A DNA stretch of 56,851 nucleotides, taken from NCBI GenBank assembly GCA_002784145.1, contig PFKE01000081.1:1-56851 (forward strand), given 5' to 3'. The notes below the pieces were generated by a model. That model was not told the DNA's origin. It made no database searches and worked only from the letters and a program-made list of their open reading frames with translations. This document shows positions 29,453-33,434 of the stretch, piece after piece. The position numbers were made by a program, and so were the translations under genes. The DNA is from Flavobacteriaceae bacterium CG_4_10_14_3_um_filter_33_47. Its GTDB lineage: Bacteria; Bacteroidota; Bacteroidia; Flavobacteriales; Flavobacteriaceae. Within the stretch, counting starts at the first letter, position 1. Each line of letters opens with the position of its first letter.

Positions 29453-30316
29453 ATGAAATTATCCTCTTTATTAATAGCACTATTTACCATTGTTTTTTGC
29501 ACATTGCCTTTTTCGGGGTTTTCACAAGATTCCATTTCAAAAAAATATACCTCAACCAAAAAAGGGAAATTTTTTATTAGTTGGGGAGGCAATAGAGAAA
29601 CGTATTCAAAATCAGATATCACTTTCAAAGGAGACAACTACAATTTTACCATTAAAGATGCCTCTGCTAGAGACAAACCAAAAGGATGGCATATTGATTA
29701 TTTAAATCCTACAAGAATAACCATTCCACAAACCAATGTAAAAATGGGATATTTCATTTCAGACCACTATGCAATATCCTTTGGTGTTGATCATATGAAA
29801 TATGTGATGAATCGCAATAAAGATAGAATTATTGATGGATTTATTAATTTACCTAGCGAAGAAGCAGGATCTGTTTACAATGGTACTTACAACAATGAAT
29901 TATTTAATGTTTCTGAAGATTTCCTAAAGTTTGAACATACCAATGGCTTAAATTTTGCCTATCTGGAATTTGCAAGGTTTGATGATATTTCATCCATATT
30001 TAATTTACCAAATACCGATAAATTTCAAGTAAACCTTACTGAAGGTCTAGGTGGCGGTATTTTGTACCCAAAAACAAATACTACCTTATTACAAAAAGAC
30101 AGATATGATGAATTTCATTTAGCTGGTTATGGTGTTTCTATTAATGCTGGGTTAAATTTTACTTTTTTTAAACATTTTTTTATTGAAGGAGATTTAAAAG
30201 GTGGATACATTGATATGCCAGACATAAGAACCACCAGCAATTCTTCAGAAAGTGCGTCTCAACATTTCTTTTATTTACAGCGAATAATTTCTTTTGGTGG
30301 TATTTTCAGAATTTAA
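29453..30316 (+). CDS. Secreted outer-membrane beta-barrel-like protein, unknown function
   Basis: A 287-residue protein with a signal peptide (LIALFTIVFCTLPFSGFSQ). The body has alternating aromatic/hydrophobic strands such as FAYLEFARF, INAGLNFTFFKHFFIEGDLKGG and FFYLQRIISFGGIFRI, ending in an aromatic-hydrophobic strand, so a small outer-membrane barrel is likely. I do not recognise a named family. It starts 13 bp after kdsA and is probably cotranscribed, which would place it in an envelope context. It overlaps the convergent DUF1801 gene by 4 bp. Confidence 0.75.
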   Translation: MKLSSLLIALFTIVFCTLPFSGFSQDSISKKYTSTKKGKFFISWGGNRETYSKSDITFKGDNYNFTIKDASARDKPKGWHIDYLNPTRITIPQTNVKMGYFISDHYAISFGVDHMKYVMNRNKDRIIDGFINLPSEEAGSVYNGTYNNELFNVSEDFLKFEHTNGLNFAYLEFARFDDISSIFNLPNTDKFQVNLTEGLGGGILYPKTNTTLLQKDRYDEFHLAGYGVSINAGLNFTFFKHFFIEGDLKGGYIDMPDIRTTSNSSESASQHFFYLQRIISFGGIFRI

Positions 30317-30696
30317 GCAATATTAGCCCATACCTTTTTACTTTTACTCAATAATCGAGAAGCTTCAAGCAAAAGTTCAATAAAATGGTTATGGTCTAAA
30401 TCTTCTATGTTTTTTAGTTGAATGGACCGGACTTGCTTGCGTTTATTGTCGTTCTTTAAAATTGGAAATTGCTTTTCTAATAAAATACCTTGAACAAAAG
30501 CGACATCCACATAATTCTTTCCTTTTAAAACATTTAAATACAGCATGGGCTTTTTATCCATGTTGTAAAAAGGAATTTTATAACTATATCGTTCCTCTAC
30601 TTGTGGCAAGGTAATTAAAATAATACTCTTTACACAAAGCATTATGGATTGATAGGGCTCTTTTTGATTGAGAAAATAATCATCAACAGGTCTCAT
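30313..30696 (-). CDS. DUF1801 domain-containing protein
   Basis: A 127-residue cytoplasmic protein of the DUF1801/YdhG-like fold. Landmarks are the early helix (QKEPYQSIMLCVKSIILI), ERYSYKIPFYNMDKKPMLYLNV and the segment ILKNDNKRKQVRSIQLKNIED. The fold is small alpha/beta; the biochemical role is unknown. It stands alone on the minus strand between two plus-strand operons, and its upstream gap also carries the operator/promoter of the next operon. Confidence 0.75.
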   Translation of the reverse strand: MRPVDDYFLNQKEPYQSIMLCVKSIILITLPQVEERYSYKIPFYNMDKKPMLYLNVLKGKNYVDVAFVQGILLEKQFPILKNDNKRKQVRSIQLKNIEDLDHNHFIELLLEASRLLSKSKKVWANIA

Positions 30697-30763: not shown

Positions 30764-30782
30764 TACTTTGCTATTCAAAGTA
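30764..30782 (+). promoter_or_regulatory. Dyad operator 1 (TACTTTG-N5-CAAAGTA), upstream of membrane/HTH operon
   Basis: A perfect 7-bp inverted repeat with a 5-nt spacer (CTATT), followed at once by CTTTAAATTATG with the start codon. Flanks ATT before and CTTTAAATTA after are shared with the copy at 32033-32051. The spacing fits a homodimeric winged-helix regulator, and one is encoded in the operon. The left half also resembles a -7 box, so binding would block transcription initiation (inference). Confidence 0.7.
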
Positions 30783-30791
30783 CTTTAAATT

Positions 30792-31415
30792 ATGAATAAC
30801 AAAGATTATTTAAAAGACATTAGCGACATTAAAAATTTAATGAATAGATCCTCTCGATTTATTTCATTAAGTGGATTATCAGGGATATTAGCTGGTGTTT
30901 ATGCACTCATTGGAGCGTATTTAGCGAATGGCATCATAACTAAAATCCAAATGGAAACTCATCCGATCAAAAGATTTCTGATTGGTTACGATTCTATTGG
31001 AACCTTATTAATTATTGCCTTTACTGTAATTGTATTATCTGTTTTAACAGCTATATACTTAACTTACAGAAAAACTAAAAAACAACATGAGAATATTTGG
31101 GATATATCATCTAAACGACTCATTATAAATTTTTTAATTCCATTATTGACTGGTGGTATATTTTGTATTGTACTTATTGATAAAGAATATTTTGACCTTA
31201 TAGCCTCTTCAACACTTATTTTCTATGGTTTGTCCTTGATAAATGCTTCAAAATATAGTATTGGAGATATTCAATATCTGGGTTTTATTGAAGTAGTTTT
31301 AGGACTTATATGCGCCATGTTTCCTGGTTATGGATTTTGGCTTTGGGTGATTGGTTTTGGAATTATGCATATTATCTATGGTACTTATATGCATTTTAAA
31401 TATGACAAGCAATAA
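30792..31415 (+). CDS. Membrane protein of unknown function, first gene of HTH/creD module
   Basis: A 207-residue protein with about six hydrophobic segments (LSGILAGVYALIGAYLANG, LLIIAFTVIVLSVLTAIYLTY, IINFLIPLLTGGIFCIVLI and others). The N-terminal 20 residues are polar and cytoplasmic-like. The family is not recognised. It lies 10 bp after operator 1, 11 bp before a second small membrane protein and in the same run as a winged-helix regulator, so it is probably controlled by that regulator. Confidence 0.7.
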   Translation: MNNKDYLKDISDIKNLMNRSSRFISLSGLSGILAGVYALIGAYLANGIITKIQMETHPIKRFLIGYDSIGTLLIIAFTVIVLSVLTAIYLTYRKTKKQHENIWDISSKRLIINFLIPLLTGGIFCIVLIDKEYFDLIASSTLIFYGLSLINASKYSIGDIQYLGFIEVVLGLICAMFPGYGFWLWVIGFGIMHIIYGTYMHFKYDKQ

Positions 31416-31426
31416 CATAAATTATT

Positions 31427-31717
31427 ATGATAACACAAAATAAACGATGGATAGGTATCTTAGGTTCTGCAACACTTATTCTACTCGTCCCATTAATTGC
31501 TATGCAGTTTACCAATGAAGTGAAGTGGGAATTATCAGATTTTATAATAGCAGGCATTCTATTATTTGGAACAGGTTTAATGCTAGAGATGTTTATGAGG
31601 AAAATAAAAAACAAAAAAAACCGAATAGCCCTAATTGTAATACTTGTAGCTTTACTTATATTAACTTGGATTGAACTTGCCGTTGGCATTTTTGGATCTC
31701 CTATAGCCGGAAGCTAA
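31427..31717 (+). CDS. Small three-helix membrane protein of HTH/creD module
   Basis: A 96-residue protein with three hydrophobic segments (GILGSATLILLVPLIAMQF, FIIAGILLFGTGLMLEMFM, IALIVILVALLILTWIEL) separated by a basic loop (RKIKNKKNR). No named family is recognised. It is placed between the larger membrane protein and the regulator with 11-bp and 7-bp gaps, so it must be cotranscribed. Confidence 0.7.
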   Translation: MITQNKRWIGILGSATLILLVPLIAMQFTNEVKWELSDFIIAGILLFGTGLMLEMFMRKIKNKKNRIALIVILVALLILTWIELAVGIFGSPIAGS

Positions 31718-31724
31718 GAAATTA

Positions 31725-32018
31725 ATGAGCATTATTAACAACATAAATAAAGTATTTGACCACAGAATCAGACTGGGTATCATGTCCGTTTTGATGGTGA
31801 ATGAATATGCCGATTTCAAAATGTTAAAAGACCTTCTAAAAGTTACCGATGGTAATTTAGCAAGCCATACCAAAGCCTTAGAATGCGCCAATTACATTAA
31901 AATACAAAAACAATTTATAGGCAGAAAACCAAACACAAGATACAGCACAACAAAACTGGGCGAATTAGAATTTAAAAAACATATCGACGCTCTTGAAAAA
32001 TTAATTAATACACAATAA
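31725..32018 (+). CDS. Winged helix-turn-helix transcriptional regulator (HTH_34-like)
   Basis: A 97-residue stand-alone winged-helix protein. The helix-turn-helix is FDHRIRLGIMSVLMVNEYAD followed by the recognition region LKVTDGNLASHTKALE; the wing is IGRKPNTRYSTTKLGE. This fits the small MarR/ArsR-like regulators of Pfam HTH_34 type that bind DNA as dimers. It has no ligand domain. It is the third gene of its operon; the dyad TACTTTG-N5-CAAAGTA in front of both this operon and creD is its probable operator, which would make it autoregulatory (inference). Confidence 0.88.
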   Translation: MSIINNINKVFDHRIRLGIMSVLMVNEYADFKMLKDLLKVTDGNLASHTKALECANYIKIQKQFIGRKPNTRYSTTKLGELEFKKHIDALEKLINTQ

Positions 32019-32032
32019 TTTTTTTATTCATT

Positions 32033-32051
32033 TACTTTGCATTACAAAGTA
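32033..32051 (+). promoter_or_regulatory. Dyad operator 2 (TACTTTG-N5-CAAAGTA), upstream of creD
   Basis: The same perfect 7-bp inverted repeat as operator 1, spacer CATTA, with the same flanks (ATT before, CTTTAAATTA after). AAAGTACTTT inside it is also a perfect 10-bp palindrome. It lies 18 bp before the creD start. Confidence 0.7.
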
Positions 32052-32069
32052 CTTTAAATTAAATAAATC

Positions 32070-33434
32070 ATGGAAAGCAAACACACACTTCAACAAAACA
32101 AATTTGGTAATTGGCTAAAAACATCCATTACCGCAAGAATGCTTATGGTAGGATTTTTAATTTTAATTTTATTAATTCCATTAACATTCATTGAAAGCTT
32201 GATTTTAGAACGCTCTTTTCGCCAAAAAGATGTGGTAAACGAAATCAATCAAAAATGGGGAAATAACGTTTTGATTTATGGGCCCATTCTTAAATTACCC
32301 TATAAAACATACAACGAAATTTCCATCTTTAATGATAAAACTAAAATCTACAGAAAGGAAATTGAGACGACCATAAATTATGCCTATCTATTTCCCGAAG
32401 TACTTGATGCCAAATCAACGGCTGAATCAAAAACCTTGCATCGAGGTAATTTTGAATCGGCAGTATTTACAACCAAAATGAATTTTTCAGGCAACTACAT
32501 TGTTACTGATTTATCTTCAAAAGACATTAAAAATGAAGATATTGTCTGGAATAAAGCGTCCATAATTGTCAACACATCAAACTTAAAAGGCATCAAAAAT
32601 GAAATGCGAATGATGTTGAATGAAAACACCTATAATTTTGAAACCAATTTTAATGAATCATTAAGCCATTTGGACGAATTAGAATCGAGTTTTATTAATG
32701 AAAAGGATCTTCCAATAACCAACTCCGTAAATTTCAAGTTTGATATGACCTTCAATGGCAGCCAACAAATTGAGTTGATTCCTATTGGAAAAACCACGAC
32801 CATGAAGATGGAATCAAACTGGGTAGACCCAAGTTTTATAGGGAATTATTTGCCAAACGATGAAACAAAAGTCATTAGTGCTGATGGTTTTAAAGCAGAC
32901 TGGAAAGTACTGCACATCAACCGGGCATTTTCACAACAATATTTAAACAAAATTCCAAATTTGGACGAATTTGCTTTTGGCACAAAATTTATGGTGATGG
33001 TTGATGAGTATCAAAAAAGTGAACGCTCTGCCAAATATGGCTTTCTGGTCATTGCTTTGACATTTTTAGTGTTCTTTTTAATACAAACCTTGAGCAAAAT
33101 TCATATTCACCCGTTTCAATATTTGATGATTGGATTGGCACTTACTATGTTTTACACTCTTTTGGTCTCCATTTCTGAACATAGCAATTTCTTGAAAGCC
33201 TATTTAATTGCAGGTATTTCGGTGATTGTTCTCATCAGCTTATATTCAAAATCAATCCTCAAAACGTTTAAGTTTCCCCTATTTATTGGCATATCCTTAA
33301 CGGCCCTTTACGCCTTTATTTATATTATTATTCAATTGGAAAATTATGCGCTTTTAGTTGGTAGTATAGGCTTGTTCTTAATTTTAGCTGCTGTGATGTT
33401 TGTTTCTAGAAAAATCGATTGGAACAACGGTTAG
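32070..33434 (+). CDS. creD: CreD family inner-membrane protein
   Basis: A 454-residue protein of the CreD family (inner-membrane protein tied to envelope integrity and beta-lactam response in proteobacteria). Layout: one N-terminal helix (MLMVGFLILILLIPLTFIESLI), a periplasmic domain (about 55-310, with VNSVNFKFDMTFNGSQQIELIPIGK-like text) and five C-terminal helices. LERSFRQKDVVNEINQKWG and FIGNYLPNDE match the family pattern. In E. coli creD is controlled by CreBC; no two-component system is present here, and the winged-helix regulator upstream with the shared dyad seems to replace it. A terminator follows. Confidence 0.9.
   Translation: MESKHTLQQNKFGNWLKTSITARMLMVGFLILILLIPLTFIESLILERSFRQKDVVNEINQKWGNNVLIYGPILKLPYKTYNEISIFNDKTKIYRKEIETTINYAYLFPEVLDAKSTAESKTLHRGNFESAVFTTKMNFSGNYIVTDLSSKDIKNEDIVWNKASIIVNTSNLKGIKNEMRMMLNENTYNFETNFNESLSHLDELESSFINEKDLPITNSVNFKFDMTFNGSQQIELIPIGKTTTMKMESNWVDPSFIGNYLPNDETKVISADGFKADWKVLHINRAFSQQYLNKIPNLDEFAFGTKFMVMVDEYQKSERSAKYGFLVIALTFLVFFLIQTLSKIHIHPFQYLMIGLALTMFYTLLVSISEHSNFLKAYLIAGISVIVLISLYSKSILKTFKFPLFIGISLTALYAFIYIIIQLENYALLVGSIGLFLILAAVMFVSRKIDWNNG

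Follow-up and report, generated by a model that had tools for sequence, protein, structure and literature searches.

We propose that a stretch of the genome of the Flavobacteriaceae bacterium CG_4_10_14_3_um_filter_33_47 encodes a self-regulating switch for membrane genes, in which a dimer of a winged-helix protein of the HTH_34 family would repress two promoters by way of a duplicated palindrome, TACTTTG-N5-CAAAGTA, and would be relieved from them via M207, a membrane protein encoded at the head of the regulator's own operon. Based as it is on genome comparison and predicted structures, we give this reading a probability of about two in three. The window, by which we mean the whole 56,851-nucleotide stretch of contig PFKE01000081.1 that was analyzed, holds the following features of the locus:

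30313..30696, minus strand: DUF1801/DUF5655 gene (PF08818, 6.7e-13), divergent from operator 1
30764..30782, plus strand: operator 1, TACTTTG-CTATT-CAAAGTA, preceding the M207-M96-regulator operon
30783..30786, plus strand: CTTT extension that gives operator 1 its direction (99-100% conservation of the four positions over 86 aligned sites)
30792..31415, plus strand: M207, a 207-aa membrane protein, obligate partner of the regulator and proposed sensor/anti-repressor
31427..31717, plus strand: M96, a 96-aa membrane protein, an optional and mobile member of the regulon
31725..32018, plus strand: HTH_34 winged-helix regulator, 97 aa (PF13601, E 6.5e-28)
32033..32051, plus strand: operator 2, TACTTTG-CATTA-CAAAGTA, preceding creD
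32052..32055, plus strand: CTTT extension that gives operator 2 its direction (94-97% conservation over 87 aligned sites)
32070..33434, plus strand: creD (PF06123, E 4.4e-141), target of operator 2 and exchangeable in relatives

Direct reading of the sequence confirmed that the window has exactly two copies of the dyad and that they share the flanks ATT before and CTTTAAATTA after while differing in their spacers, CTATT and CATTA, all as the original prediction had described. Its spacing of 18 bp between the second dyad and the creD start codon (ATG at 32070) is also correct, but the first dyad ends 9 bases, not 10, before the ATG of M207 at 30792. The genes themselves are closely set, with gaps of 11 bases between M207 and M96, 7 between M96 and the regulator and 51 between the regulator and creD. 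No further exact or one-mismatch copy of the dyad was found in the whole 2.94-Mb genome (97.6% complete), and its 26 sites with two mismatches, these two included, are no excess over the 39 obtained with a reversed-pattern control. The chance expectation for an exact dyad is approximately 0.06 per genome (12 matches to the reversed pattern in 201 genomes), and a chance repeat was ruled out by these controls, in the whole genome and in the 201 genomes. CTTT, whose bases lie outside those by which the sites were selected, follows the dyad in 94-100% of the aligned family sites (86 and 87 for the two operators), and its conservation makes the site directional, TACTTTG-N5-CAAAGTACTTT, an extended form in which one may see three half-sites, ACTTTG, CAAAGT and ACTTT.

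Is the dyad an operator, and is the HTH_34 protein the one that reads it? Our family sample comprised 201 genomes, nearly always one per genus, of which 100 have an ortholog of the regulator (E below 1e-28). Of these 100, 87 carry the exact dyad, against 3 of the 101 genomes that lack the regulator (Fisher p 2e-38); all 13 regulator genomes without an exact dyad carry copies with one or two mismatches at the locus, and in two of the three regulator-less genomes with a dyad (L132 and L133) no gene begins within the short distance that is usual. A gene-anchored test, for which intervals were picked by gene position only (the 130 bp that precede M207 and the 150 bp that follow the regulator), found the dyad with at most two mismatches ahead of M207 in all 86 loci, 67 of them exact, relative to none for the reversed pattern at the same tolerance and 7 of 1720 for shuffles. 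Behind the regulator gene it was found within 150 bp in 78 of 87 loci (shuffles, 4 of 1740), and it is absent from the creD loci of all five regulator-less genomes that have that gene. Where M207 is absent, in L106, near-sites lie on both sides of the regulator gene itself. The dyad thus stands before the orthologous operons of related genomes, and its co-occurrence with the regulator, together with the gene-anchored counts, bears out the original proposal that it is an operator linked to the HTH_34 protein. Its place in front of the regulator's own operon likewise agrees with the autoregulation that had been suggested. From these comparative data we conclude that the dyad is a real operator; the HTH_34 regulator very likely binds it and represses its own operon.

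The operator ranges over the Bacteroidota and into a few further phyla. When 11.3 million GTDB genome contigs were scanned for the extended site, blind to genes, at least 80 readable loci came up, and among those listed most have the regulator, M207 or a target gene adjoining. One locus (L135) has a short partial match to the regulator only, and the motif matches in L163 and L166, with no regulator in view, are apparently due to chance. Within a sample of the phylum the extended site, with one mismatch at most, occurs in 107 of 346 genomes, with 4 matches in all for the reversed control, and these results together with the named loci indicate that it is kept in Flavobacteriales, Cytophagales, Chitinophagales, Sphingobacteriales and Bacteroidales.

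The protein encoded between the dyads was correctly recognized beforehand as HTH_34-like: it scores 97.2 bits with PF13601 (cut-off 27) and covers the profile entirely (1-80 of 80). Its AF2 model (pLDDT 94) has a recognition helix at residues 42-54 and a long C-terminal helix at 77-96, and the best match to its fold in the PDB is 1ub9, PH1061 of Pyrococcus (Foldseek TM 0.88), which also matches in sequence (2.7e-8). Further structural matches are MarR and PadR proteins, including PadR Rv3488, YusO and NadR; the Pfam models for MarR or PadR did not match the regulator (for MarR, none at E up to 0.1). Three residues of the recognition helix, D42, S47 and H48, are invariant in 88 family sequences. 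Relatives of the regulator in other phyla keep D42 and H48 and have S, T or R at position 47, and four HTH_34 paralogs of the same family at dyad-less loci have S/K/Q, V and Q at positions 42, 47 and 48. The signature TDGN[LI][ASN][ST]H occurs in 106 of 109 regulators from dyad-bearing loci, the three exceptions having only S for T at the first place, and this ties the site to its protein as closely as sequence comparison by itself allows. A second HTH_34 subfamily was seen in L122, L124, L125 and L126, where the helix reads T[SKQ]GN[IL]SVQ and there is no dyad.

In the mechanism that we infer, a dimer of the 97-aa protein would bind the palindrome directly, and because each of the two sites lies across the -7 region and the point where transcription is expected to begin, binding would block RNA polymerase at both promoters: at promoter 1, ahead of M207, M96 and the regulator, the outcome would be autorepression, and at promoter 2 creD would be silenced too. 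As the regulator consists of a winged helix and one C-terminal helix with little else, close to a bare DNA-binding domain, and has no conserved cysteine, the signal most likely reaches it via M207, which would sense the state of the membrane or envelope and pull the regulator off the DNA. A thiol switch was ruled out, C54 of the window regulator not being conserved.

What is it about M207 that suggests this role? It has no Pfam or NCBIfam family above cut-off and no PDB fold below E 0.2 by Foldseek; its AF2 model (pLDDT 90) has six long helices after a first, N-terminal one (3-24), and its most conserved stretch is the N terminus, IKxMMxRSSRFISLSGLSG. With a strong match (E below 1e-70) required of an ortholog, M207 accompanies the regulator in 99 of 100 genomes, and an intact copy is missing from every one of the 101 others; three further genomes have remote relatives only (E 1e-12 to 1e-17). 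M207 precedes the regulator in nearly every locus. In one genome a remnant of M207 with stops lies with a fragment of the regulator (G122:C1:1393693-1394387) and the genome has no dyad, so the module has apparently decayed as a unit. The two membrane proteins that the original prediction had treated as partners alike are therefore not equivalent, M207 being obligate and M96 optional and mobile, and the invariant unit, as judged by these comparisons, is the operator, M207 and the regulator.

An alternative that keeps the same operator and regulator is that the regulator senses a small molecule itself, at its dimer interface in the manner of MarR proteins, and that M207 is merely regulated; M207 could, in the same vein, simply be the most conserved target and not a sensor. 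What speaks for this is the likeness of the fold to that of MarR and PadR proteins, among which there are several ligand binders, as well as the lack of a recognizable sensory domain in M207. However, a protein of 97 residues offers little beyond its winged helix and single C-terminal helix in which to house a ligand, the tie of M207 to the regulator is far tighter than that of creD (59 regulator genomes vs 5 others), and M207 has kept its position before the regulator nearly everywhere, as has a transmembrane protein in other phyla. We consider direct sensing of a small molecule unlikely, albeit a serious candidate, and retain M207 as the probable route of the signal.

The order of site, transmembrane protein of approximately 200 residues and HTH_34 protein recurs in Aminicenantes and Epsilonproteobacteria MAGs, assignments that, as for MAGs generally, may contain errors. 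The transmembrane protein of the Aminicenantes locus (L148) matches the M207 profile weakly (E 1.8e-5, 78%) and is likely a homolog, and no homology to M207 was found for that of the Thermotogota locus L138. At the Epsilonproteobacteria MAG locus (L180, 1-6510) the site, a transmembrane protein and an HTH_34 protein head an operon that continues with a DUF1801 gene and genes for a LolA-like protein, an outer-membrane-type protein and an RND-like transporter. It is tempting to see in all this an ancient, phylum-wide and partly cross-phylum form of membrane-state signaling, in which an obligate six-helix sensor of no known family would directly hold or release a bare winged-helix repressor that controls swappable membrane targets through one conserved operator, a system that would be distinct from the two-component, ECF sigma and LytTR systems; we offer this broader view tentatively, and rate it at somewhat less than an even chance.

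Does the regulator repress at these sites, or might it activate? In Flavobacterium psychrophilum a TAnnTTGY box has been placed at positions -12 to -5 (PMC9723704), and the left half of the dyad with its next base, TACTTTGC, matches that box, which supports the original observation that the dyad overlaps a -7-like element. There is also a preference for TTG about 21 bases upstream at site 1. In most relatives the base that follows TACTTTG at site 2 is A, not a pyrimidine, so outside this window TAnnTTGY is well matched at site 1 only. If the -7 box is used, transcription is predicted to start at about 30776 and 32045, with a bound protein spanning -12 to about +11. That the regulator is instead an activator recruiting polymerase at the dyad would suit the fixed orientation of the site and its fixed distance to the start codon, with CTTT giving it a direction, but the dyad covers the -7 box and extends into the expected start, which is a blocking position, and in the LytTR regulatory systems (LRS), functionally the nearest analogue, the activators bind upstream of -35 (PMC6193735), so we regard activation as improbable. 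Upstream of dyad 2, at about 32019-32025, there is a run of seven T followed by A; the run (positions -14 to -8) stands at a fixed distance in 87 loci, its last bases 92-98% conserved, and is absent before dyad 1, and is possibly a promoter element.

The genes behind the two operators differ greatly in their constancy. M207 follows dyad 1 in all 83 scored family sites; dyad 2 (about 87 sites) is followed by CreD in 38, by a Coq4-like protein in 21, by DUF4153 in 14 and by M96 in 4, and one site each precedes an MpaB/Lcp-type oxygenase, a DoxX/MauE-like protein and DUF2809. Small membrane proteins also stand among the exchangeable targets. Among the second genes downstream in relatives are DUF1361 and DUF218, and a papain-like C92 amidase is another dyad-linked gene. 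Some genera have an M96 homolog inside the operon; in L101, L108, L110 and L113 it lies behind dyad 2, and in L127 and L130 it is beside a distant dyad of its own. Distant dyads also precede an MpaB-type gene (L188) and a DUF2809-MpaB gene pair (L152), and so the original statement that the regulator has no other visible target holds for the present genome but not for its relatives. The DUF1801/DUF5655 gene lies upstream of the operon on the minus strand in 60 of 87 loci, never on the plus strand, and is directly divergent in 32; in L180 the DUF1801 gene is inside the operon, after the regulator. It may share the operator and is a candidate for a further member of the module. No phage match to the locus was found, and a mobile or phage origin was rejected.

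The gene behind dyad 2 in the window is a true creD, whose product scores 471 bits with PF06123 (profile 2-428 of 428) and 467.8 bits with the NCBIfam CreD equivalog (E 3.3e-140, cut-off 275), and that the dyad precedes it was correctly seen at the outset. The original prediction went further and took the module to be a dedicated control of creD by a one-component regulator in place of CreBC. In its favor, dyad 2 is followed by creD more often than by any other gene, and creD is enriched in genomes with the regulator (p 7e-18), being present in 59 of 100 of them vs 5 of the 101 others; in this genome the description is locally true. However, 41 of the 100 regulator genomes have no creD, and other targets occupy the same place. 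CreD is consequently within the regulon without being its defining member, and as an account of the module the earlier reading, being too narrow for a set of exchangeable targets, is highly improbable. CreD is an inner-membrane protein required for envelope integrity in Stenotrophomonas maltophilia (PMC4689548), which makes a connection with the envelope reasonable but falls short of showing it; that envelope stress is the signal is a guess drawn from CreD and the other targets.

Finally, the idea that the dyad is a hairpin in a leader RNA or a repeated promoter element without a regulator has in its support that the stem could fold and that its left half resembles the -7 box, but it is scarcely credible, because the presence of the dyad depends on the regulator gene, as that of a general promoter element would not, and because the hairpin is rejected by the lack of an Rfam match and by the uncompensated changes at the dyad ends. 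In the left half the outermost base is variable (T, A or C), and of the 76 sites that deviate from T..A at the ends only 2 are still complementary, a pattern that favors recognition of DNA by a protein.

We conclude that the regulon is real and broad in range, that its parts are of known kinds, and that it is, to our knowledge, undescribed. Genome comparison brings out the site, its link to the regulator, the obligate pairing of M207 with the regulator and the exchangeability of the targets, and for none of the operator, the pair or the regulon did we find a description in the open-access literature. In the open literature we likewise found nothing relevant on CreD with HTH_34, DUF4153 or the motif, and no paper that gives the HTH_34 family a function, operator, target or membrane partner. 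HTH_34 regulators are common in Bacteroidota, and one subfamily of them can now be linked with targets, with an obligate partner in the membrane and with an exact operator. Most of these targets (DUF4153, DUF2809, DUF1361, Coq4-like, MpaB-like and CreD) are of unknown function, and their assignment turns orphan membrane genes into one testable regulon. The genera with the module include the culturable Flavobacterium. For CreD it also suggests a route of control outside the Proteobacteria that does without CreBC.

How does the proposed switch compare with systems that are known? CreD itself is shared with the CreBC/CreD system of Gammaproteobacteria, but there a two-component system controls near creD, whereas here the candidate is a one-component winged-helix protein for which CreD is only one optional target. 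The cre box is TTCAC-N6-TTCAC, and it has no match on the plus strand of the window. Nor were creB or creC found adjoining creD, whose neighbors at the locus are M207, M96 and the HTH_34 gene before it and a minus-strand gene without resemblance after it. Closest in plan are the LRS, in which a transcription regulator and a transmembrane protein are encoded in one operon that is autoregulated through promoter repeats, in many phyla (PMC6193735). The candidate here for a transmembrane protein that would control the activity of the regulator is M207, an obligate partner with six predicted membrane helices in the regulator's operon. The LRS, however, have LytTR domains, direct repeats upstream of -35, positive feedback and a membrane inhibitor (PMC6193735), whereas the present locus has an HTH_34 protein that probably represses and a repeat that is inverted and lies across -7/+1, and a LytTR-type DNA-binding domain is absent from its regulator, HTH_34 being the only domain above cut-off. 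MarR and PadR repressors resemble it in their small winged-helix fold and in a palindromic operator over the promoter, and differ from it by the obligate membrane partner. PH1061 (PF13601; 1ub9) is of the same family and fold, with the recognition helix TPGNLDSH where the window regulator has TDGNLASH. Relative to the HTH_34 family in general, then, what the comparison adds, for one subfamily, is its operator, its set of targets and its obligate partner in the membrane.
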